NCBI GenBank assembly: GCA_023666125.1
Contig: JAMPCN010000025.1
Location: 1-34,675, forward strand
Length of the DNA: 34,675 nucleotides
Source of the DNA: Bacillus sp. (in: firmicutes)
Lineage (GTDB): Bacteria; Bacillota; Clostridia; Lachnospirales; Lachnospiraceae
Reading direction: 5' to 3'
Every line of letters begins with the position of its first letter. The first letter of the stretch is position 1. Positions 12,187-28,086 of the stretch are shown here, piece by piece. Position numbers and translations under genes: made by a program. Below the pieces are notes generated by a model. It did no database searches, was not told the DNA's origin, and saw nothing but the letters and a program-made list of their open reading frames with translations.

Positions 12187-13269
12187 TTATTTGTCTTTTC
12201 CTCCTGCCGCCACCTCTTCGATGACCGCCGTAATCGTAGCGATTGCGTCTCTTTGTGAACTTTTGCTCATGGCATCTATATAGGTAAGCCTCGTAAAGTA
12301 AAGCTCCTGCACTTTCTCTACTAAAAGCTTTGTCGTCAAATCGTCCTCATCTACTACGATACTGAACCCCTGCGCCTCAAAAGATTTGGCATTGAGAATC
12401 TGGTCGCCGCGGCTGCTGGCAGACGGTAACGGAATCAAAAGATTTGGTTTTCTCAATGCAAGCAGCTCATTGATGGCGTTTGCTCCTGCTCTGGAAATGA
12501 CAACATCTGCCATGGCAAAAATATCCTTTAATTCCGATTTTATATATTCAAACTGCTTATAGCCTTTTGTCGTCAAAAGCAGATTATCCATCTTTTCTTT
12601 TCCACATATATGGACAACCTGAAAGTCTTCCAAAAGCTGTGGCAGGGCGTCTCTGACCGCCTGGTTAATGGCTGCCGAGCCAAGGCTTCCACCGATTACC
12701 ATGACGACGGGTCTTGACGCATCGAAGCCGCATAACCGGTACGCCGCCTCCTTATTTCCCTTTAACAACTCCTCCCGAATCGGTGAACCCGTTAAAATCG
12801 CTTTCTCGGCAGGCAGCAGTTTAAACGTTTCCGGAAAATTGCAGCAGACTTTTTTCGCCGCCGGAATACAAAGTTTATTCGCCAATCCCGGCGTCATATC
12901 CGACTCATGCACCACGCAGGGAATCTTTAAAGACGACGCCGCCCGCACGACCGGTACGCTGACAAATCCGCCTTTGGAAAAAACAACGTCCGGTTTGATT
13001 TCCCGTAAATATTTTTTTGCCTCCGACATGCCCTTTAATACGCGGAACGGGTCGGAAAAATTTTTCGGGTCAAAATATCTGCGGAACTTTCCTGTTGCAA
13101 TTCCGTAATAAGGGATATCAAAATCCTCAATCAATTTTTTTTCTATTCCATCATAGGAACCCATATAGGAAATTTCATAGCCCAACTCTCTTAACTTAGG
13201 AATCAAGGCAATATTGGGCGTTACATGTCCGGCGGTGCCGCCGCCGGTTAATACAATTTTCTTATCCAT
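12187..13269 (-). CDS. murG: MurG-type UDP-GlcNAc:lipid I GlcNAc transferase
   Basis: 360 residues, the usual MurG length. It transfers GlcNAc from UDP-GlcNAc to lipid I to make lipid II on the cytoplasmic face of the membrane. Seen: the N-terminal GGTAGHVTPN loop (normally GGTGGH), HESDMTPGLANK, the hinge loop GGSLGSAAINQ, and the UDP-GlcNAc site SRAGANAINELLALRKPNLLIPLP. The start is supported by TAGGAGG upstream. It lies outside any division/cell-wall cluster, behind a small TSCPD gene, so it could be the only copy or a second MurG-like enzyme; the window cannot show which. Confidence 0.92.
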   Translation of the reverse strand: MDKKIVLTGGGTAGHVTPNIALIPKLRELGYEISYMGSYDGIEKKLIEDFDIPYYGIATGKFRRYFDPKNFSDPFRVLKGMSEAKKYLREIKPDVVFSKGGFVSVPVVRAASSLKIPCVVHESDMTPGLANKLCIPAAKKVCCNFPETFKLLPAEKAILTGSPIREELLKGNKEAAYRLCGFDASRPVVMVIGGSLGSAAINQAVRDALPQLLEDFQVVHICGKEKMDNLLLTTKGYKQFEYIKSELKDIFAMADVVISRAGANAINELLALRKPNLLIPLPSASSRGDQILNAKSFEAQGFSIVVDEDDLTTKLLVEKVQELYFTRLTYIDAMSKSSQRDAIATITAVIEEVAAGGKDK

Positions 13270-14661: not shown

Positions 14662-16272
14662 CTAATGATAAACGGAAACAGTCGGTCCTGTTCCATATTC
14701 CTTAAGAGAGTATCGGAACATATCAAAATATCCAACCCGGAATTTCCACTCTTTTCCGTAGGTAATTCCCTCACACGACTGCTCCAATGTATAGCCGCTC
14801 AATTTGCTTTCATAAGCGGCTTTTAATTCCGGATACATATCGTGGCCCTGCATTATCAGATAGTCGTTTTTCTGGCTGAAATATTTCGTTGCGTACTCCA
14901 CCTCTATATAATATTCATCTTCCGCCAAAGTGTCCGGCAGTTTTGCAAATTCTTCCCCGATATCTATGATATGATATTTTTCCGTATCCAGAACAGGCGC
15001 ATAGGACGTCGCATAAATCGTTGCTCCCTCCGGGATATTTTCCTCTATCCATGGTACTATCCGTGTATATGTCAGCTCGTACCGATATGTGTTTACCGCG
15101 GCCAAAATATTTATCAAAACCATAACCGCCACGACTGCCGGAACAATCCACGCGGCTTTTGCCGATAACTTTTCCGTCAGTCCTTTCTTTGCTATCACTT
15201 TTTTTATACCGTCCTCTAACGCCATCAGTCCGTATACCCAGAAAAGATAAGCAAACGGAATCACCAGCGAAAGATTCCTTCCTAACATAATATGATATCT
15301 GGATAAAAAAAGAATTACAAATACCGGCATAATCAAATAAAGAGCAAGCTGTTTCCATTTTTTATGGCAAATCATAACCACTATTCCGAGCAGTAACAGC
15401 AGTCCGCCAACAATGCCGTAGCTTGTAAGCCCGTACGCCTCCAGATGCCCTAAAAGCGGCAGATTATGCTCGATGCCCGGATGCCCCCATGCGTAGTGCT
15501 GTAAATTATACAGATTATCACCGACAAAGCGGGGAAAATGAAAAAACATAGAATAGTTACAAATGCAGAATACCAATGCAAGCACAATGCAGTTTAAAAA
15601 GAAAAGATAGTTGTTCCGGTACGATTTCCAGTATTTTTTTACGATATGCAAAATCAGCCAGAACAGACCGAATAAAATACCGTGATATTTCGCCGCCGTC
15701 GCAAGCCCGATACAAATTGCCAGAAGCGGATACCACAGATAAACGCTTCTCTCCTCATTCTCCTCTTTATAAATCAGCGTGCCAAGCAATATGATAACAT
15801 TGGCAACCGCATACATCATCGTATCGGGGCCGGTATAATACAAATAGGAAAAACTGTATAAGGAAAAAACCGAAAGCGCAAATCCGATATATGCCCATTT
15901 CCTGCTGCCTGCTATCTTACGGAGCGTAAAATATACGCACGCATTGGAAAGCAGCGCGGTTCCACAGATAATAAAGCGTATCAGGATATCCATATCCCAT
16001 CCGCCCAATATCCTGCTTATAATACGAAACCCCAGCAGCGCATAGTAAAATGTCAGATGCGGATAGCGGAAAAAGTCCAGTATGTAAATATCCCCCGCAT
16101 AAATATGCTGATTTAACAATTCATGAATACAATCTAACGACAACAGCTCGTCCACATTCGGATAACCCGGCAGTTCAAACTGCCAGTGTTTATAAAAAAC
16201 AAGGATACCGGCAAGCAATGTCGCAAATACTGCCGCCGCCATGCCGATTTTTTTCTTTATCTCACTGCTCAT
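14662..16272 (-). CDS. GT39/GT-C-like membrane glycosyltransferase
   Basis: 536 residues with about ten to twelve hydrophobic helices and a C-terminal soluble part (about 420-536). The first external loop carries acidic residues (PNVDELLSLD) where GT-C enzymes have their catalytic aspartate, followed by FFRYPHLTFYYALLGFRI, a pattern seen in PMT/ArnT-like transferases. Such enzymes use polyprenyl-phosphate sugars and act on the outer face of the membrane. It is the last gene of the glycan operon, nine bases after the GDPD-like gene, with GGAGG overlapping that gene's stop. Acceptor and sugar are unknown. Confidence 0.8.
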   Translation of the reverse strand: MSSEIKKKIGMAAAVFATLLAGILVFYKHWQFELPGYPNVDELLSLDCIHELLNQHIYAGDIYILDFFRYPHLTFYYALLGFRIISRILGGWDMDILIRFIICGTALLSNACVYFTLRKIAGSRKWAYIGFALSVFSLYSFSYLYYTGPDTMMYAVANVIILLGTLIYKEENEERSVYLWYPLLAICIGLATAAKYHGILFGLFWLILHIVKKYWKSYRNNYLFFLNCIVLALVFCICNYSMFFHFPRFVGDNLYNLQHYAWGHPGIEHNLPLLGHLEAYGLTSYGIVGGLLLLLGIVVMICHKKWKQLALYLIMPVFVILFLSRYHIMLGRNLSLVIPFAYLFWVYGLMALEDGIKKVIAKKGLTEKLSAKAAWIVPAVVAVMVLINILAAVNTYRYELTYTRIVPWIEENIPEGATIYATSYAPVLDTEKYHIIDIGEEFAKLPDTLAEDEYYIEVEYATKYFSQKNDYLIMQGHDMYPELKAAYESKLSGYTLEQSCEGITYGKEWKFRVGYFDMFRYSLKEYGTGPTVSVYH

Positions 16273-16281
16273 GGATGAATC

Positions 16282-16872
16282 CTACCTCCAGTCTTTGATA
16301 TGGTAGCTTTTCGTACAAACGGCGTCAAATATAAAGCCCTGCTCGTCCAGATACTTTTTATAGGCGGGAAGTTTTTCCTCCTGCCCCTCTAACTCCGGGG
16401 AAACAAAACACAATTTATAGCCGAGAGCTTTTAATTCCCGATAGCTTTCCTGGTCTAGCGGTATCTTCGTAAAGCAGTCCACCCAGACCCAATCCGCCTT
16501 TCCCGCCATATTTCGGATAGTGTCAAGCCCCTCTAACTCGCTGAAACGGAGCGCGATATCTTTCACTCCCATATCCGTCAGCAGTTTTATCATCGGAAAA
16601 GAAGAGTCCAGAAAAAAATATTTTTCAATATGATACTTTTCCATAAACTCTAATATTTTATGCTCAATCCGCTCGCTTTTTACATTTAGAATCATCGTGC
16701 CGTGTTGATACTCTTTGCAATACTCTTCAAAATCCTCCCCTGGCTCGAATGGATTGTGGGAAATATAAATCCTGCCGTTTAAATCGTCTCGCAAATCCAG
16801 TTCTACCCCGTATTCCGTCTCCAGCTCGCGAAGTTCTTTTATCGTATTAACCCGATGCGCTATATATTCCAT
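16282..16872 (-). CDS. Short GDPD-like (PLC-type TIM barrel) protein
   Basis: 196 residues. The N-terminus matches glycerophosphodiester phosphodiesterases: AHR (H6-R7), VELDLRD (E24, D26) and SHNP (H39), which provide the two catalytic histidines and the metal ligands. The protein is shorter than typical GDPDs (about 240 residues) and lacks a signal peptide, so it should be cytosolic. In a glycan operon it might cleave a phosphodiester intermediate or a CDP-polyol-like compound; this is inference. It lies 21 bases after the GT2 gene and nine before the GT39 gene. Confidence 0.75.
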   Translation of the reverse strand: MEYIAHRVNTIKELRELETEYGVELDLRDDLNGRIYISHNPFEPGEDFEEYCKEYQHGTMILNVKSERIEHKILEFMEKYHIEKYFFLDSSFPMIKLLTDMGVKDIALRFSELEGLDTIRNMAGKADWVWVDCFTKIPLDQESYRELKALGYKLCFVSPELEGQEEKLPAYKKYLDEQGFIFDAVCTKSYHIKDWR

Positions 16873-16893: not shown

Positions 16894-17595
16894 CTATCTT
16901 AGTCCGCCCTTTTTCAATTTTACACTGAAATCTATAGTCCTTTTAATAAATTTCCACTTTGCTTTTAAACCGGTATTCCACTTTGACTCCCCGTGGATTC
17001 TCTCCGGAAACAGTACCGGAAAACGAATCACTTTCAGTCCTTTTACTCCTGCCATATACAAGGCGTATAAATCCAGAGAAAAATCATGCGGCGGATTCTC
17101 CCACGCTTCATAAAATGTCTTTGGAAACAGATTTGGCTGCGCATTGATATCATATAAAGGCATTCGCAGATAACAGCTCTCAAACAGACTCATCCCCATT
17201 GTGAAAAAGACATCAAAAAGCGGTCTCCCTTTCCGGTTCCCTTTTACAAAAACCGGCTCGCCGACCCTTTCTATGATATGAAGCGCTTTTATGATATCTT
17301 TCGGGTCGGTCTGCATATCCGCATGCGTCCAGCCGACATATTCCCCCCGACATTTTTTTAATCCCTGTAAAATGCCATACCCATATCCCTGATTGACAGG
17401 CACGAGCGTTGTCTTTGCAAAAGGATAGCGGGGTAAAAGTTCCTCCAGTACGGCGGCCGTATTATCCGTAGAACCGTTATTGACAAGAATTACCTCGATA
17501 TCTTTTCTCTTTATCACTTTCTCAAACCGCTCCAAAATAAGCGGTATATTTTCCTCTTCGTTATAACAGGGTACTACAACCGATAATTTCATCAT
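16894..17595 (-). CDS. Family 2 glycosyltransferase (DPM1/polyprenyl-P sugar synthase-like)
   Basis: 233 residues, GT-A fold: LSVVVPCYNEEENIP at the N-terminus, VNNGSTDNT for nucleotide binding, and THADMQTDP as the metal/acceptor motif. It has no C-terminal TM pair. Length and motifs fit dolichol/undecaprenyl-phosphate sugar synthases, which would supply the lipid-linked donor used by the two GT-C type membrane proteins of the same operon. AAAGGA precedes the first of two consecutive ATG codons by eight bases. Confidence 0.85.
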   Translation of the reverse strand: MMKLSVVVPCYNEEENIPLILERFEKVIKRKDIEVILVNNGSTDNTAAVLEELLPRYPFAKTTLVPVNQGYGYGILQGLKKCRGEYVGWTHADMQTDPKDIIKALHIIERVGEPVFVKGNRKGRPLFDVFFTMGMSLFESCYLRMPLYDINAQPNLFPKTFYEAWENPPHDFSLDLYALYMAGVKGLKVIRFPVLFPERIHGESKWNTGLKAKWKFIKRTIDFSVKLKKGGLR

Positions 17596-17620: not shown

Positions 17621-18349
17621 TCATTCTTTCATCACGGACAGCAGTTGTGCATAATCAGAAATTTCTTTATAAGAAATCTCCCGGTTGGTATGCTCATCCC
17701 AAAGCTTCCTTTCAACAACGTTACCGGACGATTCCGCCGTCCGCCGGAACCATACAGGCTGCATCCCCGCCTGCGCGGCGCCTTTGATATCTTTTTCAAA
17801 ATTATCTCCCACATACCATATATGCTCCGGCGGCAGTTTTAATTTTTCCAGACATAAAGCAAAAACCTCTTTTGCGGGTTTTTCCCTGCCTGCCTCTTCG
17901 CTGCTTACAAGATAATTAATATCCGCGGCGATTCCTAACGCCTCTATTTTACGATGCTGAATATGCGCCGTCAAATCCGTACATATCATAATCGGTATCC
18001 GCTTTTGCCTTAAATAGCCGATAACCTCCTTTGCCCCCGGAAAAAGCGTCATATTCTGCAAAAAAGTATTCCAGTATTCATCATATATCCTCAAAGACAT
18101 GGGCATCGGTGAAATGCCCAGATATTCCAGCATTTTCTGAAAATACAACAATCTGTTGTGTCCTGCTCCAAAATCCGATAACTGCCGTTTGGTTTCCTTT
18201 CTGCCAAAAAGATACGCCTCTCTGAATTTATCCGCACCGATACCCAGCATTTTACAGGTAAACGCTTCCACATTCTGTCCGGCTCTTTTATCCAGTTCGT
18301 CATAATCATATAACGTACCATCCAAGTCAAATATGACCGCTTTTAACAT
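17621..18349 (-). CDS. HAD-superfamily phosphatase (subfamily IA)
   Basis: 242 residues: motif I FDLDGTLYDYD (D8, D10), motif II ICTDLT, a motif III lysine in GREKPAKEVF, and motif IV VGDNFEKDIKGA. A helical cap lies between motifs I and II. Cytosolic phosphatase or phosphoglucomutase-like enzyme; within this operon it probably removes a phosphate from a sugar or polyol intermediate. Its start is one base after the stop of the GT-C/kinase fusion, so the two are translationally linked. Confidence 0.88.
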   Translation of the reverse strand: MLKAVIFDLDGTLYDYDELDKRAGQNVEAFTCKMLGIGADKFREAYLFGRKETKRQLSDFGAGHNRLLYFQKMLEYLGISPMPMSLRIYDEYWNTFLQNMTLFPGAKEVIGYLRQKRIPIMICTDLTAHIQHRKIEALGIAADINYLVSSEEAGREKPAKEVFALCLEKLKLPPEHIWYVGDNFEKDIKGAAQAGMQPVWFRRTAESSGNVVERKLWDEHTNREISYKEISDYAQLLSVMKE

Positions 18350-18350
18350 A

Positions 18351-20450
18351 TTAAGTACTCACTTTCATAATTTCTCCGATTACCAACATAACCATCAACT
18401 GCACCGCTCCGTTCAAGCCGTCTTCCCAGACAATCCTGCTGCCCGCCAAATCCTCTATCTGCGGAATTGCCTGCAATGCCGTTTCTTCCCACACTTCTTT
18501 TGTGATATGCAGGCTCTCGCTTTCTATCACAATTCTCTGATGCAGCAAATCATCATAGATAAGCTTCGCTTCCACGCCCCGTTCCTGCAATAAGGCAAGG
18601 AGCGGTTCTGCATTAATGCTGACGTCCATTATAAATTCCACGCCTATCTGAAGTTCATAGGCTTCATTATCCTTATTCTCAGCAAGCGCAAGTCCTTTAT
18701 CAAAGTATCGGATAACCAAATCCGCATACTGCTTTTGCGGATAAATATATTTTTCCGCATCTTCTCTGCGTTCTTCTATCTGTTTTATAATTTCCTCTTT
18801 TTGATGCCCTCTATGGCTTACATCCCGGTATATCTTCCAATAACGCCGTATATCCTCATCCGTATCAAGAAATATCTTCATATCCAATACCTGCCGCATC
18901 TGCGGAAGATATAGAGAATGCAGTCCGCACAGCACAATATAAGGCTTTGGCGTTACTCTTCTCCGGTTTGTAAAAATACCGGTATCATGGTCGTACTCCA
19001 CTCTTTTCACCGCATTGCCATCCCGCAGAATGCGCAAATCCTCCGCCTGCCTGTACAGATAATTGGCGCGGGGATTTAAATGCGTTATATCCTTCCAGTT
19101 TTCACTGCCCCGCTCCCATTTGTGGTCGCCGTCTCCCTCGATATTCAAAATATGATTTTCATCTAACAGTTCATCCAGCATCAAAAGCAGCCTGCTTTTT
19201 CCGGAACCGCTGTCGCCCGCAATGCCAATAATAAAAGGACGGCTTCTTCTTTTATAGTAGGAATTGCTGTTTACCCCGTACTGATACATGGAAAAGACAA
19301 GCACCAAAAATACGCCGACCATAAGCGTAAACACGATGTTTTTCATATCCGTGTCCTGTATTTTCAGACAGGATAAATCCCTGCCCAAAAAGTATAAATC
19401 TATAAACTGCGTCGCATGGAAACAGATATAATAAAGCAGATACAAAAGATAAAAAATACCGAAAATCAATACCATTTTTCCTCTGCTTTCCCGCTGTCTC
19501 GCAAGATACAGCATGAAAAACGGCACGACCCAGATATACCACGCCGGCATCGCCGGAACAAAGGCTAAAAAGACGGAAAACAAAAGACCCGTCATGCTGA
19601 TTAGTAAATCCCTGTTCATCTGGTTGATGCGAAATGCCTGAAAATAAATAAACAATAAAAGCAGTACCGACAACAGCAGCCTCGCGCTTCCATAATCTAT
19701 ATAGACATTATCAATCGCACTCTGCTCCTTGTTAAATAAAACCATATTGGCAAAACCGCTGCCCCAAAACGGCAGCACAATCGCCACAGTTGCCAGTATC
19801 GGAAGTCCTGTCATGATAAACGCCAATTTAGGCCCCCTCTTTTTATAAATATACAGAAAGAACAGCGGCAGCGCCGCCACGATATGAAACTTTGACGCCA
19901 GCGCAAGCGTCAGAAAAATGCCGTACTTCCATTCGCTCCCCGTTATACCGCTCTGCGTCAGATAATAAATCGCACCGAGCAAAAAAACCGTAGGGATAAT
20001 GTCAAGCTGCCCGTGCATATAGGACGCGTATAAAATAACAGGGGATAAAAAATACAACGCCAGAATATATTTTCTTTTTGACTGGGAAATCTTCATTAAA
20101 TAGAACAGCCCCAGCAAATCCATCCCTAAAATCGGCAGTTTAAAAAGCAAATTTTGCAAAAAAATCGGCAAATTTTGCAGATATGTCACAAAAACGCCCC
20201 CGATACACTCAATCAAAAGCATCACGGGCGGATAAGGAAACGAAGACAGTAATTGATTATCATAATAATATTGATAGGGATTTCCCTCTCCCGTTAAAAA
20301 ACGCCTTACAAACGGAATAAACATTAAATCCTGATAATCGGACGAAAAAAGTCCCATCAGCAATAACTTGAATAAAACTGTCAGTATAATGGCAGTCTTA
20401 AGGTATCTTTCATAGTTCTTCTCAATGTCAGGCATTCTTATTTTCTTCAT
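18351..20450 (-). CDS. GT-C membrane protein fused to uridine-kinase-like domain
   Basis: About 699 residues. Residues 15-395 hold eleven or so hydrophobic helices with an early SSDYQDL acidic loop and a PAMPAWYIWVVPFF motif, like DUF2029/ALG-type mannosyltransferases. After a basic junction comes a P-loop, GIAGDSGSGKS (409-419), and a kinase of the uridine kinase/phosphoribulokinase group (GDGDHKW, the R-rich TNRRRVTPKP stretch, VLCGLHSLYLP), then about 90 residues that I do not recognise. A membrane transferase joined to a small-molecule kinase is unusual. The ATG at 20450 is behind AAAGGA and overlaps the previous gene by 23 bases; upstream starts lie deeper in that gene. Confidence 0.85.
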   Translation of the reverse strand: MKKIRMPDIEKNYERYLKTAIILTVLFKLLLMGLFSSDYQDLMFIPFVRRFLTGEGNPYQYYYDNQLLSSFPYPPVMLLIECIGGVFVTYLQNLPIFLQNLLFKLPILGMDLLGLFYLMKISQSKRKYILALYFLSPVILYASYMHGQLDIIPTVFLLGAIYYLTQSGITGSEWKYGIFLTLALASKFHIVAALPLFFLYIYKKRGPKLAFIMTGLPILATVAIVLPFWGSGFANMVLFNKEQSAIDNVYIDYGSARLLLSVLLLLFIYFQAFRINQMNRDLLISMTGLLFSVFLAFVPAMPAWYIWVVPFFMLYLARQRESRGKMVLIFGIFYLLYLLYYICFHATQFIDLYFLGRDLSCLKIQDTDMKNIVFTLMVGVFLVLVFSMYQYGVNSNSYYKRRSRPFIIGIAGDSGSGKSRLLLMLDELLDENHILNIEGDGDHKWERGSENWKDITHLNPRANYLYRQAEDLRILRDGNAVKRVEYDHDTGIFTNRRRVTPKPYIVLCGLHSLYLPQMRQVLDMKIFLDTDEDIRRYWKIYRDVSHRGHQKEEIIKQIEERREDAEKYIYPQKQYADLVIRYFDKGLALAENKDNEAYELQIGVEFIMDVSINAEPLLALLQERGVEAKLIYDDLLHQRIVIESESLHITKEVWEETALQAIPQIEDLAGSRIVWEDGLNGAVQLMVMLVIGEIMKVST

Positions 20451-22074
20451 GCTGGATAAATCCTTTAAAGTATTGATATGTTTTCTGATATGCCTCATAA
20501 TCATCAGGCGTTCCCCAACCCACATATCTGTCGATATCAAAAATTTTCGCACTGTACCCCAGTTCCAGTACATGTTTTATGGTCTGGTCCACGTAAAATT
20601 CCTGATTGATGCGGTCGTTCTCCGCAATCATTTTTTTCGTTGCCTCTATGAATATTTTCGCCTTTTTAAACCAGAAAGTTGCAACCACCGCCGGGTCTTC
20701 CATCGGCGTATCAGAAATTGCTTTCTTAATGGACGTACCCGTAATATTCCCTTGTCCGTCCGCAATCATCCAGCCATAAGCGTTCGGATTAACCAGTACC
20801 GACTCGTTGTGGCGGTACGTAAAAACAATGCAGTCACATTCTTTTTTCAACGCTTCATACTTTTTCTCATCAATATCCATGCCGTTATCACACCCCGCAA
20901 TCAATAGCGGCTCTTCCGGATTCAGGTACTCTTCGGCAAGCATACAGGTACATGCCTGTCCCTGCGTCAAATGGTCTATCGTAATAAACTCCACTTCCGG
21001 ATAATAGGCGCGGATGGCATCCTCCACACCATCGCTTTTATGAAACGTTCTGTCCACATAAATAACATTTTCACCAGACGCTGCCACATCCGGTAAATCC
21101 GCGGTTGCACATACCACCATCGGTTTTTCTTCCCCGCACTTTCTATCTATCGTCATAATCGCCGGTTTATGTACTTGATATCCCGCATCAGTAAAACGCT
21201 GTCCTGCACCTGCCATTGGAATTAAAACTTTTCCATTAGGAATTTGTGATGATACCCCCGTATTTTCATTCTTCTTTCGGCTGTCATTACGGATTAAATC
21301 CGTCCAATATACAAATTCCCGCAAATCCTCCGGCGTACCCCATTGGCAGAAATAATCGATGTCTGTGGGTATCCATACTTTCAGGCCGTCCTTTACCATA
21401 AACTGATAGGGCAGGCTCGCATAAAATTCCCCGTTAATGGCGTACTCTTCATGTTCTGTCAATATTTGGCAATATTTTTCCATGACTTCGCCGCTTTTAA
21501 AATAATAAGTTCCCGGGGAATGTTTTGCTTTTGTCTTATCTTTTTCAAACGAATATTTCTCCCGGATTTCTATTAAATTATCCTCCGCGTCCGTCAGGCA
21601 GGATGCGTAATAATTCTTTTCGGGCAGCAGATGCGGATGAAACCCCGTATAACAGGGAACCGCGCCGTCACAGTTCCTTGCTGCCGCCTCATCGGCAAAT
21701 GCCCGGTAATCCCATACCATATAAAAATCACAATAGTTGATAATACAAGGCGCTTTTGTATCTATCTCTCCCGCCTCGCATAACATACTGTAAGCGCGAA
21801 GCACGTCATAGACCGGACCTTTTTTGACCCAGTCTTTTATTGCGACAATCTTTGTTTTCGGCGCAAGCGCCATAAGCCTGTCTCGCATGGACGCATCTTT
21901 TTGCAGATGCTCGTCGCGGCAGGCAAAGATAAAATTAACGTCATCAGAATACATTCTCGTTACAATCCATTCGATAACCGGCCTGTCCAGAACCCGGATA
22001 AAGGGTTTTAACTCCTGATACCCCGCCGCCACAAACCGGGAACCGTATCCTGTCATGGGAATTATAACATTCAT
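20428..22074 (-). CDS. Tandem two-domain sugar nucleotidyltransferase
   Basis: 548 residues made of two RmlA-like GT-A domains in line. Domain 1 (1-262) opens with IPMTGYGSRF (5-14) and KPF, has a metal-binding-type aspartate in NYCDF (D116) and ends with WGTPEDL. Domain 2 (281-548) repeats IPMAGAGQRF (285-294), KPA, GCDNG (D396) and GWGTPDDY. Both retain the GxGxRF...KP signature and both could be active, giving one protein able to activate two sugar or polyol phosphates, or one active and one regulatory half. A linker of about 18 residues separates them. First gene of the glycan operon; ribosome site GAGGAAA eight bases before the ATG. Confidence 0.88.
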   Translation of the reverse strand: MNVIIPMTGYGSRFVAAGYQELKPFIRVLDRPVIEWIVTRMYSDDVNFIFACRDEHLQKDASMRDRLMALAPKTKIVAIKDWVKKGPVYDVLRAYSMLCEAGEIDTKAPCIINYCDFYMVWDYRAFADEAAARNCDGAVPCYTGFHPHLLPEKNYYASCLTDAEDNLIEIREKYSFEKDKTKAKHSPGTYYFKSGEVMEKYCQILTEHEEYAINGEFYASLPYQFMVKDGLKVWIPTDIDYFCQWGTPEDLREFVYWTDLIRNDSRKKNENTGVSSQIPNGKVLIPMAGAGQRFTDAGYQVHKPAIMTIDRKCGEEKPMVVCATADLPDVAASGENVIYVDRTFHKSDGVEDAIRAYYPEVEFITIDHLTQGQACTCMLAEEYLNPEEPLLIAGCDNGMDIDEKKYEALKKECDCIVFTYRHNESVLVNPNAYGWMIADGQGNITGTSIKKAISDTPMEDPAVVATFWFKKAKIFIEATKKMIAENDRINQEFYVDQTIKHVLELGYSAKIFDIDRYVGWGTPDDYEAYQKTYQYFKGFIQHEENKNA

Positions 22075-22156: not shown

Positions 22157-22771
22157 TTATCGTAAAATAGCCTTCTCAAGAACATGAAGCGCCCTTTCAT
22201 TTTCTTCCTGGCAATAGGCAAGGATTTCCTTCCCTCCTTTATCCGCTACAATCGTTGTATCTGCCCCCAACTGCACGAAACAGATATAATTTTCTATCGT
22301 TTCTATCCGGGAGGCGGACGCCTTATTATAATTTTGCGGATACTGCTTATTTTCTTCAATCAGGCGGGTACGGTATTCTTCTAACGCCTCTTCAATCGCA
22401 CCAACATAATCCTCTTTGGCGCGTACAATAATCATCATATCAATATTGGATTTTAAACTCGATTCTTCCGCCAGAAATTCCACATACATATCCTGTATAA
22501 TCCCGGTCTTTTCCTCCAATTCCTCTTTGGAAAGAGTAATTTCCGGCCAGTAATTGTCTCCTAATTCTTCTTTTACGCTTTCCCGCAGTTTGGATAATGC
22601 CGGAGGCTTTCTCTCCGACACCATCGCCGCTACGTCCGCGCCGTCGCTCTGCAGGGCATTTTTGTATCCACCCTCCACTAGCTCGTCCGTCGGCGTGCTT
22701 TCTCCGCAGCCTGCCAATGTACATAAAATGAAACAGCCCGTCAATACTATAACCGTTACTTTTTTTACCAT
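22157..22771 (-). CDS. DUF4358-domain lipoprotein
   Basis: 204 residues. The signal peptide is basic (VKK), hydrophobic and ends in a lipobox LAGC with the lipidated cysteine at 22, so the protein is anchored on the outer face of the membrane. The middle and C-terminal part (about 80-190; MMIIVRAKEDYVGAIEEALEEYRTR and a late ENYICFVQLGAD strand) matches what I recall of DUF4358, a lipoprotein domain common in Lachnospiraceae and of unknown function. It is divergent from the MBOAT operon, sharing a 181-base control region, and 82 bases upstream of the glycan operon. Confidence 0.8.
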   Translation of the reverse strand: MVKKVTVIVLTGCFILCTLAGCGESTPTDELVEGGYKNALQSDGADVAAMVSERKPPALSKLRESVKEELGDNYWPEITLSKEELEEKTGIIQDMYVEFLAEESSLKSNIDMMIIVRAKEDYVGAIEEALEEYRTRLIEENKQYPQNYNKASASRIETIENYICFVQLGADTTIVADKGGKEILAYCQEENERALHVLEKAILR

Positions 22772-22952: not shown

Positions 22953-24479
22953 ATGTTATTTAATTCTTTTTTATTTATTTTTATCTTCCTGCCGCTTACC
23001 TTATTGGGCTGGTACGGACTAAATTACTGCAAACGATACGAACTGGCAAAGGTTTTCCTTGCTGGTATGTCTTTATGGTTTTATGGCTATTTTAATTTTT
23101 CTTATCTCGCCATTATCCTTATCAGCATTGCCGTAAACTATCTGTTAAGTTCTCTGCTTGCTCGTGTGAATAAAAGATTTTCTAATACAGACTCTGCAAA
23201 AATAAAACTGATAAACCGCATTGGCCTTTTTACCGGCATTATTTTTAATTTAGGACTGCTTTTTTATTTTAAATACTACGACTTTTTCGTCGAAAATCTA
23301 AACTACGCGCTCCATACGGACTTTACGCTCAAACATATCCTGCTGCCGCTCGGCATCAGCTTTTTTACGTTCCAGCAGTTATCGTTTATCATAGACCGCG
23401 CTCTGGGCAGAGCGGAGCATTACTCCTTTATCAACTACCTTACTTTCGTCACATTTTTCCCACAGTTGGTCGCGGGGCCGATTGTTTTATATAAAGAAAT
23501 GATTCCTCAGTTTGAAGATACCGCCAACCGGAAATTCAACGCGCAGAATTTTTCACAGGGCATTATCCTGTTTGTCCTCGGACTTTCCAAAAAAGTACTG
23601 CTTGCCGATGTATTCGCCCTTGCCGTGAATTACGGCTTTGCACAGACGTTCAGTCTGGATACGCCCTCGACTATCCTTGTTATTTTATCTTATACGTTTG
23701 AGATTTACTTTGATTTCAGCGGCTACTCCGATATGGCGATGGGACTTGGCAAAATGTTTAACATTACTTTGCCCGTCAACTTTAATTCCCCCTACCGCGC
23801 CTGCTGTGTCAAAGAATTATGGCAGAGATGGCATATGACCTTATCGCGCTTTTTTATCACTTATGTCTATATCCCACTTGGCGGCAGCAAAAAGGGAAAA
23901 GCGCGGACGATTATCAATACTGTCGTTATCTTTTTCCTAAGCGGACTTTGGCACGGGGCAGCATGGACCTATATTGCATGGGGTACGATGCAGGGGCTAC
24001 TTGTTGTCTGGGATAACCTCGGCGTCGTCGGCATTAAAGGACGGGAGGAAAAGCATCCGGCAAAATTCCACATCCCCGCGTGGCTCGGCTGGCTCTGCAC
24101 CTTTATATTCTTTAATTTGTCGCTCTTTTTCTTCCGCAGCGAAAGCATGATTGGCGCGGTGCAGATGTTCCGCAATCTGGGCGCATTAAATTATACGGGG
24201 AAAATGTTTGAAGTAGCGTCCACATTGGACATACCGGAATTTTATGTGATACAGGAAGCGCTCGGCATCCTTGCGCCGGGTCTTGTCGGATACGCTTATC
24301 TGGCGCTTTTATTCTTTTATCTGGGGCTGTCGTTTTATTTGATGTTTAGAAAAAACGCGTTACAGATTGCGGAAGAGGGAAAACTTTCCTCTAAAAAGTG
24401 CTGGGCGGTTTCCATCCTCTTTGTATGGTGTATTATTTCGCTTTCACAGGTCAGCACATTTTTATATTTTAATTTTTAA
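22953..24479 (+). CDS. MBOAT-family O-acyltransferase (AlgI/DltB-like)
   Basis: 508 residues, polytopic. It would move an acyl group from a cytosolic donor to a surface polymer. Family marks: TFFPQLVAGPI (168-177), the central YSDMAMGLGKM and NFNSPYRACCVKELWQRWHMTLS (H294), then FFLSGLWHGAAW with the putative catalytic H334. The length fits AlgI better than DltB (about 400), and the adjacent SGNH-type partner resembles AlgJ/AlgX or DltD systems. The substrate may be the glycan made by the operon next door; this is inferred from proximity. Ribosome site GGAG, weak. Confidence 0.93.
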   Translation: MLFNSFLFIFIFLPLTLLGWYGLNYCKRYELAKVFLAGMSLWFYGYFNFSYLAIILISIAVNYLLSSLLARVNKRFSNTDSAKIKLINRIGLFTGIIFNLGLLFYFKYYDFFVENLNYALHTDFTLKHILLPLGISFFTFQQLSFIIDRALGRAEHYSFINYLTFVTFFPQLVAGPIVLYKEMIPQFEDTANRKFNAQNFSQGIILFVLGLSKKVLLADVFALAVNYGFAQTFSLDTPSTILVILSYTFEIYFDFSGYSDMAMGLGKMFNITLPVNFNSPYRACCVKELWQRWHMTLSRFFITYVYIPLGGSKKGKARTIINTVVIFFLSGLWHGAAWTYIAWGTMQGLLVVWDNLGVVGIKGREEKHPAKFHIPAWLGWLCTFIFFNLSLFFFRSESMIGAVQMFRNLGALNYTGKMFEVASTLDIPEFYVIQEALGILAPGLVGYAYLALLFFYLGLSFYLMFRKNALQIAEEGKLSSKKCWAVSILFVWCIISLSQVSTFLYFNF

Positions 24480-24524
24480 CAATTCAATTTTAAATTTTTT
24501 ATTTTAGAAAGAGCGGTCATTTAT

Positions 24525-25553
24525 ATGGAACAGAAATTTATCAAATCATTTTTTATAAGGACAATCGTCATACTGTTTATCCTAATCGCGGCCGTGGTTT
24601 TATTCGACCCTTTTTACCAATACCATAAACCGCTGCCGGGGTTAAAGAGCGTCCTCTCGGACAAGGAGTACCAATGTGTCGGAACGCTCCGCACCTTTGA
24701 TTACGACAGCCTGATTGTCGGCTCGTCTGTTTGTGAAAATTATAACAATCATTGGTTCGATGAGGGATTTGACTGCACCGCCATCAAGGCAATCCGCTCT
24801 TACGGCGCAATCGCGGATTTATGTTATTTGCTGGATATCGCCTATCAGAATCAGGATTTAAAATATGTCTTTTTTAATATCGACCCGGATTCCCTGACCG
24901 CCAGCACGGAAACGACATACGAATCCACGGGATGTCCGATGTATTTATACGATACGAATTATTTAAACGACTATTCCTATGTCCTTAACAAAGACGTTAT
25001 TATGAAAAAAATACCATATATGCTGGCTTTTTCCATGAAAAACGATTATGATGAAGGTAACTCCTATAATTGGGCGCAGTGGAAATACTTCGGCGCGGAT
25101 TTGGCGCTGGGTATGTATAACAGACGCTCTACCATAACCCCGATGCGTGAAAAAAACTGTCATCAGGCAGAACTTGACGCTAACATCGCGCTATTGGAAG
25201 AACAGGTACAGGCGCATCCCGAAACGACTTTTAAATTTTTCTTCTCGCCCTATTCCAAGCTCTGGTGGGATAACGCGTACCGAGGCGGAGAAAGAGACGC
25301 GCACCTGTATAACGAGGAACAGGCTATTGCCGCGCTGTTAGAATATGATAACGTGGAAATTTACTATTATCAGGATGAAGAGGAAGTCATCACCAATCTG
25401 GATAATTACATGGATATGATTCATTTTTCCAAAGAGATTAACCAACTCATCTGCGATAAAATGATAGCAAAAGAGGGTAGGCTGACAAAAGAAAACTATC
25501 AGTCCAGACTACAGAATATGTATGAACTCTCGGAAAGGATACTATTGCCATAA
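24525..25553 (+). CDS. SGNH/DltD-like membrane-anchored acylation partner
   Basis: 342 residues with an uncleaved N-terminal anchor (about 9-28) and an extracytoplasmic domain. Block I appears as [10 protein letters not shown] (the GSS holds the candidate nucleophile at 67-68) and the late MDMIHFS supplies the Asp-x-x-His pair expected of SGNH esterases/transferases. MBOAT acyltransferases of the AlgI and DltB types work with such a protein to complete acyl transfer outside the cell. It lies 45 bases behind the MBOAT gene, and its stop overlaps the exonuclease start by one base. Full family assignment needs profile searching. Confidence 0.8.
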
Positions 25554-26317
25554 TGAAACTGATTTCATGGAACGTAAACGGATTAAGAGCCTGCATGGGC
25601 AAAGGATTTATGGAATTTTTTGAAGCGCAGGACGCCGATATCTTCTGCCTGCAGGAGACCAAATTACAGGAGGGGCAGATTCAACTGGAACTGCCGGGTT
25701 ATCACCAGTACTGGAACTATGCCGAAAAAAAGGGCTACTCCGGCACTGCCATCTTTACAAAAAAAGAACCTCTTGCTGTCACCTATGGCATCGGCATCGA
25801 AGAACACGACCATGAGGGGCGCGTCATTACCTTGGAATTTCCGACGTTTTATATGATTACCGTCTATACGCCCAATTCCAAAGACCAGCTCGCCAGACTT
25901 GACTACCGCATGAGGTGGGAAGATGACTTTCTTGCCTATATCAAAAATCTGGAGGAAAACAAACCCGTTATTTTCTGCGGCGACTTAAATGTGGCACATC
26001 AGGAAATCGACCTGAAAAATCCGAAAACCAACCGCAGAAACGCCGGTTTTACCGATGAGGAGCGCGCCAAATTTACAACGATTACCCAATCCGGTCTCAT
26101 TGATACGTTCCGCTATTTTTATCCCGATTTGGAAAACGCCTATTCCTGGTGGTCTTACCGTTTTCACGCGAGGGAGAAAAACGCCGGATGGCGCATCGAC
26201 TATTTTATTGTTTCCGAATGCTTACGGGATAATTTGCAGGATGCGCTTATCTATAACAATATTATGGGTTCCGACCACTGTCCGGTCGGACTGCTTACAA
26301 AAGGTGCTATTTGCTGA
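25553..26317 (+). CDS. xth: Exodeoxyribonuclease III
   Basis: 254 residues, the usual length of the ExoA/Xth type. A 3'-5' exonuclease and AP endonuclease of base-excision repair. Motifs: SWNVNGLRA (N7), LQETK (E35), [20 protein letters not shown], and the C-terminal GSDHCPV (D241, H242) forming the catalytic Asp-His pair. It is coupled at both ends: TAATG overlap with the SGNH gene and TGATG overlap with the CotH-like gene. DNA repair inside a surface-modification operon is unexpected and probably reflects co-expression, not shared function. Confidence 0.96.
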
Positions 26318-28086
26318 TGAAAACAAAAACGATTATTGGTATCTTAATATGTTCCCTGCTGCTTTTTATCCTGGGCTTTCAAAAGCTTTCTGATGCCAAA
26401 GAGGCATATGATACGCCGACAGGATTCAATTCAGATACGGTTTATATTAACATATCCGGTCATAAAGTTGCTTTATGGCAGCAGGAGGAAAATCTCTATG
26501 CCTTTCTTCCCTCCGCTTGCAAAGATGCCGGAATTAAGCCGAAGATTCCTGCCATAATCGACTCTTCTTCCATCATTCAGGTGTATTCCGAAAACATCCC
26601 CGCAGTCTTTATCGAAACCGAATCAGGCACATCAGAACAGATAAACAGCGATAAAGACATAAGAGAACCCGGAAAAATATCCGTATTGGACGCTGATGGC
26701 CATACTGTCACATTCCCGCTCGATTATATAAAAGGCCGGGGAAATACTTCCTATACGGAATTCGAGAAAAAATCCTACCAGATAAAACTAAGAGAATCCG
26801 CGCCGTTTTTAGGTATGCAATCTTCTAAAAAATGGATTTTTACCGCCAACGCCGCCGACTCCTCTCTGCTTCGCAACGCGCTTTCCAGAGACCTTGCAGA
26901 CCATCTTGGACTGCCGCAGTCGAAAGAGGGCGTCTTTGTAGACCTATATTTAAACGGCGAATACGCGGGCAATTATTATGTAACGGAAAAAGTGGAAGTG
27001 GCAAAGACGCGTCTTAACATCACCAATCTGGAAAAAGAAATGGAAATACTGAATAACGACGTCAACTTAAGCCTTTACGATACCGCCTGGACAGAAAAGA
27101 CCAAGGCGAAACAGATTCCCATAGAACCGGAAGATATCACGGGCGGCTATCTGATAGAGCGCGACTTCGACGCCAGATTTATTAAAGAAGTTGAGACAAA
27201 CGGAAGCTATTTTATTACGCAGGCGGAAGAATGCTTTATCCTCCGCTCTCCGGAATACGCTTCCGAAAATCAGGTCGCTTATATAAACGATTTCGTCCAG
27301 AGCGTGGAAAACGCCATCCTATCCCCTGATGGTATAGACGCCCGGAGCGGAAAATATTATACGGATTTAATAGACGTAAAATCTTTTGTACGAAAATACT
27401 TATTAGAAGAAGTAACAGCCAACTATGACGGCGGCGTGGCAAGCTCCTATTTCTATAAGGATATTGACACGGTATCCGATAAACTCTACGCCGGACCTGT
27501 CTGGGACTACGACGTTACCTGGGGGAACTCGCCCGCCTATCTGGGCTATCTGTCCACCTCTCCGAACAGGCTTACCAAACTTGCCTCTCATACCGACTCT
27601 TCCGTCTGGTTCTGCGCATTGTACGACAAACCGGATTTTTATAAGGAAATAACCGCCTGTTATCAGAATGAAATAAGCTCTTATCTACAAACGCTCGCCG
27701 AAAAAACGCTCCCGCGGCTTGCCGAAACGACGAACGCTTCCGCCGCGATGGACAGGCTCCGCTGGCAAAGCCAGTATACGAAAAATGAAGTAACAAGAAG
27801 CCGTGAAGAAGAGATTGCCTTTCTATCCGACTATATCATGCAGCGCAAATCTTTTCTTGACAAAGCATGGATTGAACAAATACCGCTACACCAGATTACG
27901 CTTATGGTGGAAGATACGGTTTATGATACGCTATATGTTTTCGACGGGGAACCGTTACCCGTTCTTCCGGCAATAGACTCTGAGTATGTGCCGTTTATAT
28001 GCTGGCGCACGGAGGATGACGCCTTACCGGATATTGGAACTCCTATGTATACCGATATCGTATTCCATGCGGATTTGCAATACTAA
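26317..28086 (+). CDS. CotH-family protein kinase-like surface protein
   Basis: 589 residues beginning with a hydrophobic segment (about 4-22) that is a signal peptide or anchor. The body carries CotH features: IKGRGNTSYTEFEKKSYQIKL, LRNALSRDLADHLG, GEYAGNYYVTEKVEV, VRKYLLEEVTANYDGG and GPVWDYDVTWGN, the last holding the metal-binding aspartates of this atypical kinase fold. CotH of Bacillus phosphorylates spore-coat proteins; in anaerobes many relatives are secreted and have no known target. An extra N-terminal domain (about 30-140) and a short C-terminal domain (about 520-589) flank the core. The start overlaps the xth stop. Confidence 0.9.
   Translation: MKTKTIIGILICSLLLFILGFQKLSDAKEAYDTPTGFNSDTVYINISGHKVALWQQEENLYAFLPSACKDAGIKPKIPAIIDSSSIIQVYSENIPAVFIETESGTSEQINSDKDIREPGKISVLDADGHTVTFPLDYIKGRGNTSYTEFEKKSYQIKLRESAPFLGMQSSKKWIFTANAADSSLLRNALSRDLADHLGLPQSKEGVFVDLYLNGEYAGNYYVTEKVEVAKTRLNITNLEKEMEILNNDVNLSLYDTAWTEKTKAKQIPIEPEDITGGYLIERDFDARFIKEVETNGSYFITQAEECFILRSPEYASENQVAYINDFVQSVENAILSPDGIDARSGKYYTDLIDVKSFVRKYLLEEVTANYDGGVASSYFYKDIDTVSDKLYAGPVWDYDVTWGNSPAYLGYLSTSPNRLTKLASHTDSSVWFCALYDKPDFYKEITACYQNEISSYLQTLAEKTLPRLAETTNASAAMDRLRWQSQYTKNEVTRSREEEIAFLSDYIMQRKSFLDKAWIEQIPLHQITLMVEDTVYDTLYVFDGEPLPVLPAIDSEYVPFICWRTEDDALPDIGTPMYTDIVFHADLQY

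Follow-up and report, generated by a model that had tools for sequence, protein, structure and literature searches.

Introduction

Phosphoribulokinase (PRK) is usually taken as a marker of carbon fixation. In a different setting, GDP- and ADP-heptose are activated through the successive action of a kinase, a HAD phosphatase and a nucleotidyltransferase. A HAD phosphatase also acts in the haloarchaeal non-carboxylating pentose bisphosphate pathway, which is catabolic: ribulose-1,5-bisphosphate (RuBP) is formed from ribose-1,5-bisphosphate by an isomerase and dephosphorylated by a HAD-type RuBP phosphatase, and the resulting ribulose-1-phosphate is split by a class II aldolase (PMC9700705, in the portion of the article available). 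On the side of glycan assembly, pentofuranose addition in Citrobacter youngae O1/O2 (GT136) relies on a donor made via a polyprenyl phosphoribose synthase and on a MATE-family flippase, and the available portion of the article names no sugar kinase or nucleotidyltransferase step (PMC11127046).

Here we describe a fusion gene in a Lachnospiraceae genome. It lies in a stretch of 34,675 nucleotides (contig JAMPCN010000025.1 of assembly GCA_023666125.1), hereafter the window, and encodes a membrane part with a GT-C glycosyltransferase fold followed by a PRK-type kinase.

The fusion gene

The gene occupies positions 18351..20450 of the minus strand, where a first-pass annotation had correctly placed it, and consists of an uninterrupted frame of 699 aa, with fold matches for both halves. 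Residues 1-395 (19266..20450, minus strand) form the GT-C domain, with D38 of SSDYQ in the first loop, D111, and YMHGQLD at residues 144-150. The kinase domain follows at residues 403-697 (18360..19244, minus strand), and its P-loop, GDSGSGKS, is at residues 412-419 (19194..19217, minus strand). The longest mechanical ORF starts at 20573 and encodes 740 aa; we favour the 699-aa start, as the conserved region begins well within the shorter form and AAAGGA is located 10 bases upstream of the ATG at 20450.

The first-pass annotation had read the gene as a one-frame fusion that could be undone by a sequencing error merging two genes. Kinase and GT-C domain are encoded by a single ORF in all 58 related loci, including two (L070 and L074) that are truncated by contig ends yet cover the domain junction. 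Similarly, a scan of 61 relatives' genomes returned 25 match rows without any internal stop, and fusion frames of at least 698 aa are present in 22 of these genomes. The fusion is real and conserved. Assembly error or artificial merging of frames is ruled out by the 58 single ORFs together with the alignment.

A fold search assigns residues 6-394 to the GT-C membrane fold, as had been supposed for this part of the protein, with polyprenyl-phosphate-sugar users as best matches (9-12% identity). Asp 38, located in the first outer loop and likely the GT-C catalytic residue, is conserved in 54 of 57 aligned sequences; it is replaced by Gly in L075 and L078, so that these two proteins may rely on a different residue or lack transferase activity, and faces a gap in L073. 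With E-values up to 1 allowed, the GT87 family (PF09594) did not match the window protein; on L075 it reached 20.2 bits, under its gathering score of 25. Helix listing and charge analysis give about eleven transmembrane helices, close to the number first reported, except that a hairpin at residues 75-121 is ambiguous. The distribution of charges would place the kinase on the cytoplasmic side of the membrane and the GT-C site outside.

The kinase domain

The kinase had initially been described as uridine-kinase-like, a label that did not survive closer comparison. It matches PF00485, a family spanning both phosphoribulokinases and uridine kinases, at 125.5 bits (gathering score 22), and scores 196.4 bits with the NCBIfam phosphoribulokinase model PRK07429 (under its cut-off of 236) versus 93.7 and 79.1 bits with uridine kinase models (under cut-offs of 180 and 220.3). 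In the PDB, phosphoribulokinases are retrieved with E-values down to 1.6e-37 and uridine kinases with 1.6e-16. The PRK fold spans the whole domain in the fold search, so that what had been seen as the kinase's own C-terminal extension aligns as part of this fold. The lid motif, W-K-x2-R-D...I-x-P-Q, is PRK-like and differs from that of uridine kinases. Finally, fusion kinases form one group in a phylogenetic tree (support 99/99), and five uridine kinases constitute a separate group on a branch with support 100/100, to which a long-branch warning applies. Uridine kinase identity is ruled out by model scores, PDB hits, fold, lid motif and tree taken together.

Judging from its sequence, the kinase is nearer to phosphoribulokinases than to uridine kinases; ATP:ribulose 5-phosphate (Ru5P) activity is a prediction, and because the PRK07429 score lies under the cut-off, we speak of a PRK-type kinase rather than of PRK proper. 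This proximity makes a phosphosugar a likelier substrate than the nucleoside, simple polyol or polyprenol first considered.

Conservation was assessed on 57 sequences, namely the window protein and 56 loci (L070 and L074 were left out). The P-loop motif GDSGxGK is conserved with a single G-to-A exception and its Lys, K418, is invariant. D440, H443, R447, R542, D543, and R547, which we take to be the catalytic Asp and the Ru5P-side Arg/His/Asp set of phosphoribulokinases, are found in all 57 kinases. The Walker-B Glu (EGLH in most phosphoribulokinases) is replaced in every fusion (C in 47, S in 6, G in 2, T in 1, A in 1), although it is no strict PRK criterion, since two of the six ordinary phosphoribulokinases aligned (L083 and L084) carry R at this position. 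As to whether the domain lacks nucleotide-binding residues, a possibility raised at first reading, the P-loop and the acidic and basic residues are thus kept and the Walker-B Glu is not. We also considered a reciprocal swap, from Cys/Glu in phosphoribulokinases to Glu/Cys in fusions, and rejected it: four of five uridine kinases share the first Glu, and two phosphoribulokinases lack the second.

Partner genes in the window

The fusion is the second gene of a same-strand run extending from 22074 down to 14662, in the order tandem nucleotidyltransferase, fusion, HAD phosphatase, GT2, GDPD-fold protein, and second PMT-like membrane protein. The first gene (20428..22074, minus strand), which overlaps the fusion gene by 23 bases, encodes a tandem sugar-1-phosphate-type nucleotidyltransferase of 548 aa with weak NTP_transf_3, RmlA, and GalU matches; its PDB profile hits are 4evw and GalU enzymes. 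At several other loci (e.g. L052, L056, and L064), this protein is split into two adjacent genes. Upstream of it, the window carries a gene for a DUF4358 protein (22157-22771) and is devoid of the class II aldolase.

For the HAD phosphatase (17621..18349, minus strand), the nearest curated family is NF053830, the haloarchaeal ribulose-1,5-bisphosphate 5-phosphatase, with an E-value of 2.2e-51 and a score of 174.8 bits, about half the cut-off of 330. This family ranked first of 50, the second-best scoring 115.6 bits, and it ranked first for all four HAD proteins scanned. The GT2 protein (16894..17595, minus strand; PF00535, E 2.8e-24) resembles dolichol-phosphate-mannose synthase and ArnC, its best PDB match being dolichol monophosphate mannose synthase 5mlz (E 1.3e-12), followed by ArnC (4.8e-11); it is predicted to load a sugar onto polyprenyl phosphate. 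The next gene (16282..16872, minus strand) encodes a small protein of 196 aa for which Pfam gave no match at E up to 1. When a sequence profile of this GDPD-like family was run against the PDB, the single hit, at E 0.08, was not a GDPD. A fold search retrieved GDPDs, and the protein has the GDPD TIM-barrel with two His and a Glu/Asp pair; H6, R7, E24, D26, and H39 are invariant among 12 aligned sequences. The run ends with a second PMT-like membrane protein (14662..16272, minus strand), which matches PF02366 at E 3.1e-5, barely above the cut-off, and PF13231 slightly under it; this protein is accessory rather than core. No GtrA was found among the genes scanned in the run, and the genome carries four GtrA matches (PF04138) elsewhere, one of them partial.

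Other genes of the window include one for a GT28 protein that has both the N- and the C-terminal domain (12187-13269, minus strand) and that we take to be MurG-like; a family resembling it in length and appearance is present at 22 of the 58 loci. A divergent MBOAT acyltransferase and its partner protein (22953-25553, plus strand), found at 20 and 14 of the 58 loci, respectively, are perhaps a surface-glycan O-acylation pair. The window also encodes a protein of 563 aa containing a SIR2-like domain (PF13289; 1332-3023, plus strand), a type of protein known from defence systems, and a CotH kinase-family protein (26311-28086, plus strand).

Distribution and co-occurrence

The 58 loci (L021-L078; L036 contains unread bases) were obtained by scanning species genomes with peptide patterns of the query and are 35-97% identical to it. 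Most belong to Lachnospiraceae and many are metagenome assemblies; other labels are Oscillospiraceae, Treponema, Opitutales, Verrucomicrobia, Deltaproteobacteria, and Oleispira. Cultured carriers include Velocimicrobium porci and Clostridium sp. LS. The 58 loci and the 61 genomes are not independent samples, as they overlap (G006 and G462, for example, agree in contig and coordinates). Because the loci were found by query peptide patterns, a lone kinase of the fusion type could be missed among them. This gap is filled in part by a kinase-only profile run on 398 genomes of the phylum (best 5 candidates per genome), which gave two strong matches, in frames of 741 and 703 aa. The next five, at 204 to 175 bits in frames of 310-374 aa, look like free-standing phosphoribulokinases, and the remainder (at most 103 bits) are mostly short frames, five of which were aligned and are of the uridine kinase type.

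Partner genes recur next to the fusion: of the 58 loci, 55 have the nucleotidyltransferase, and the GT2 is found at 54, the HAD phosphatase and the GDPD-fold protein at 52 each, the class II aldolase at 47, the second PMT-like protein at 28, and GtrA at 16. The 19 misses of the first four partners comprise nine at contigs ending early, eight at L046 and L061, and two for the HAD phosphatase at L067 and L078. The fusion exists in records of several phyla and co-occurs with the tandem nucleotidyltransferase, a point the first-pass annotation had wished to see checked: fusion, nucleotidyltransferase, and GDPD-fold protein are present in the identical 22 of 61 relatives' genomes. The class II aldolase is carried by 20 of these 22 genomes (it is missing in the window's genome and in G006) versus none of the 39 others; its gene is usually located just upstream of the nucleotidyltransferase, and E100, H113, and H115 are invariant among 11 aligned homologues. 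In the phylum sample (best 8 candidates per genome), strong matches to the GDPD-fold protein come from the two genomes that also carry the fusion, and a third genome gives a single weak one (64.5 bits). Beyond the partners named in the first-pass annotation, the GT2 belongs to the core set, the GDPD-fold protein is a further partner, and the class II aldolase is found in most relatives. E. coli genomes searched at the DNA level, where a negative proves little, gave no match to GT2/GDPD and HAD-GtrA-GT2-GDPD stretches.

A few loci depart from this arrangement. At L046 and L061, the fusion has no partners nearby, and a nucleotidyltransferase is located elsewhere in both genomes. In the first of them (G457), aldolase, nucleotidyltransferase, HAD, GT2, and GDPD-fold genes are clustered with no fusion between them, and the sole fusion gene sits on a different contig, so that the full set is retained although unlinked. 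In the second (G458), where L061 is a second copy of the fusion, the kinase was duplicated together with the GT-C half, and the genome has one full tandem nucleotidyltransferase and two weak partial matches; a methyltransferase-like gene comes after the fusion at L061. Two further genomes, G010 and G012, each carry a second fusion copy 44% identical to the window protein. At L078 the HAD phosphatase was not found, and at L067 none was found in the available stretch, the genome of the latter yielding a single nucleotidyltransferase half. The L067 cluster encodes an inositol-monophosphatase-family protein (L067:6329-7138), a possible substitute for the phosphatase step. Kinases from L069 and L077, labelled Opitutales/Verrucomicrobia, nest within a mostly Lachnospiraceae group of the tree, which suggests horizontal transfer or mis-binned contigs.

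Rubisco (PF00016) was detected in none of the 22 fusion genomes; the only genome of the sample with a match, G057, has no fusion. A role in carbon fixation is unlikely for these 22 genomes.

A possible pathway and its alternatives

We infer the reactions, their order and the identity of the sugar from the above observations. In our main reading, to which we assign a probability of roughly 40%, the fusion is predicted to be a membrane enzyme with two functions in a glycosylation route that uses lipid-linked donors and most likely starts from ribulose 5-phosphate. The cytoplasmic PRK-type domain would phosphorylate a pentulose (or pentose) 5-phosphate at C1, most likely converting D-ribulose 5-phosphate into the 1,5-bisphosphate, from which the HAD phosphatase would strip the 5-phosphate to leave the 1-phosphate. 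The tandem nucleotidyltransferase would convert the 1-phosphate into an NDP-sugar, from which the GT2 would load the sugar onto polyprenyl phosphate. A flippase of the GtrA type, adjoining the fusion at some loci and encoded elsewhere in the window's genome, would flip the polyprenyl-P-sugar, which the GT-C half would use as donor for transfer at the outer face. The aldolase (absent from the window) and the GDPD-fold enzyme may carry out recycling or editing steps. The first-pass annotation had proposed phosphorylation, activation and then dephosphorylation by the same three enzymes; such a scheme is plausible, but by analogy with heptose activation the phosphatase more likely acts before the nucleotidyltransferase.

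We place the ribulose version first on account of the kinase, the HAD phosphatase and the aldolase: these three point to convergence on pentulose 1-phosphate via the 1,5-bisphosphate, and nucleotidyltransferase, GT2, GT-C, and sometimes GtrA would supply the standard steps by which a sugar phosphate becomes a lipid-linked donor and is transferred at the outer face. Several observations weigh against it: PRK07429 and NF053830 scores are both under cut-off, the Walker-B Glu is replaced, D38 is not universal, no HAD was found at L067 or L078, the aldolase is absent from two of the fusion genomes including that of the window, and the window run has no GtrA. The GDPD-fold enzyme is also without a clear place in it. 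Moreover, as the kinase would act several reactions ahead of the GT-C step, the fusion offers no obvious direct channelling; our guess is that it couples donor supply to the consuming transferase, which fits the co-duplication of both halves in G458. We regard as tentative, and rather doubtful, the more specific proposal of a dedicated ribulose-5-phosphate to ribulose-1,5-bisphosphate to lipid-linked ketopentose route for surface glycans, in which bacteria without Rubisco would have tied the kinase to the transferase that uses its product.

The main difficulty is chemical. The C1 phosphate of a ketose is not anomeric, so that an NDP-1-ketose would be no ordinary donor for GT2 and GT-C enzymes. 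This strains the ribulose version and favours either an aldose 5-phosphate as substrate or phosphotransfer, unless one more step is missing.

With an aldose, the same order of reactions would start from an aldopentose 5-phosphate (arabinose- or ribose-5-phosphate) phosphorylated at the anomeric OH, and would yield an NDP-pentofuranose and a polyprenyl-P-pentofuranose, the aldolase merely clearing ribulose-1-phosphate as a side-product. This alternative, which survives best though we find it unlikely, follows the logic of the ADP/GDP-heptose pathway and is chemically coherent with GT2 and GT-C donors; two genomes keep the remaining set without the aldolase. That a lipid-linked donor, a flippase and a GT-C can together add a pentofuranose is moreover established, with another donor synthesis, in the system described in the available part of PMC11127046. 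However, ketose chemistry is what the motifs of the kinase, the family ranking of the HAD and the aldolase itself, kept in 20 of 22 genomes, point to.

Phosphotransfer would instead involve an NDP-1-pentulose comparable to CDP-ribitol or CDP-glycerol, with pentulose-1-phosphate joined to the glycan as a phosphodiester that the GDPD-fold protein edits. Such a use suits a primary C1 phosphate and would account for a conserved phosphodiesterase fold that co-occurs with the fusion in 22 of 61 genomes, and CDP-pentulose has a precedent in CDP-ribulose, which is mentioned, among the matches listed, solely as the product of mammalian ISPD (cited in the available part of PMC4924997). We nevertheless consider it improbable: no polyol-phosphotransferase is apparent among widely shared neighbours, as judged by sizes and first residues, GT2 and GT-C are glycosyl-transfer families, and the GDPD activity is itself a prediction.

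Still less probable is a tethered kinase whose substrate, beside the GT-C site, would be a nascent or lipid-linked glycan instead of a free sugar phosphate. In favour of this are the single ORF at all 58 loci and the co-duplication of kinase and GT-C in a genome with one full tandem nucleotidyltransferase and two weak partial matches, but the residues taken to be the Ru5P side of phosphoribulokinases are invariant, and the charge distribution puts the kinase in the cytoplasm and the GT-C site outside. We hold it very unlikely that the genes serve to salvage or detoxify pentose phosphates, by converting Ru5P via RuBP and ribulose-1-phosphate into DHAP and glycolaldehyde, and lie in glycan loci by mere location; homologues of RuBP phosphatase and class II aldolase recall the haloarchaeal pathway, whereas co-occurrence with nucleotidyltransferase, GDPD-fold protein, and GT2, covalent union with the GT-C, and two genomes holding the kinase without the aldolase all speak otherwise. 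Finally, a non-catalytic PRK fold that would regulate the GT-C by sensing ATP or a sugar phosphate, as the loss of the Walker-B Glu in 57 of 57 fusions might suggest, is hardly credible given that the P-loop Lys, D440, R542, D543, and R547 are invariant in the same 57 and that the ordinary phosphoribulokinases L083 and L084 likewise lack this Glu.

Implications

A conserved PRK-type kinase joined to a GT-C in anaerobes without Rubisco (0 of 22) indicates a second likely role for the PRK fold, and cautions that PRK hits need not mean carbon fixation. The recurring gene set is a testable candidate for the making of an unusual, probably five-carbon, cell-surface building block. If the ketopentose route is true, glycan synthesis would pass through RuBP, and a biosynthetic origin would be at hand for pentulose residues such as ribulose or xylulose. 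Xylulose is known from a few bacterial polysaccharides, Eubacterium saburreum T15 being among the producers (PMC8707391, available portion); this species is now named Lachnoanaerobaculum saburreum. Other xylulose producers are E. coli O95, Campylobacter jejuni RM1221 and Devosia submarina. Lachnoanaerobaculum orale carries the gene set (L064), but the link is a weak lead, because the fusion occurs in only one of six genomes of the genus. The available part of PMC11380512 names no xylulose-donor genes, and among the matches listed, our literature search returned no donor or pathway for xylulose.

Comparison with known systems

The closest kind of kinase is the class II phosphoribulokinase of cyanobacteria, plants, and Methanospirillum, from which the window protein differs in being fused to a membrane GT-C, in the replaced Walker-B Glu, in the absence of Rubisco from the 22 fusion genomes, and in its signature, E(G/C)D(G/S)xHxWxR versus (C/T/A/E)LD(D/G)YHxLxR in the six phosphoribulokinases aligned. 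With the GT-C polyprenyl-phosphate-sugar transferases ALG3, GPI-MT-I, ALG6, PimE, and ArnT, it has in common the fold of residues 6-394 and the first-loop Asp (54 of 57), but it is only 9-12% identical to them and carries a kinase. Activation of GDP/ADP-heptose has a similar order of steps, with a kinase of another superfamily that is not known to be fused to a glycosyltransferase. The haloarchaeal pathway shares homologues of the HAD RuBP phosphatase and of the class II aldolase (PMC9700705, available portion). Each domain is known in itself; among the matches listed from PMC (title or abstract start), there was no GT-C/PRK fusion, and neither the combination of the two domains, nor the set of partner genes, nor the signature E(G/C)D(G/S)xHxWxR turned up in them. 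The closest published system is the three-component pentofuranose addition of Citrobacter youngae, which combines a lipid-linked five-carbon donor, a flippase, and a GT-C (PMC11127046, available portion).
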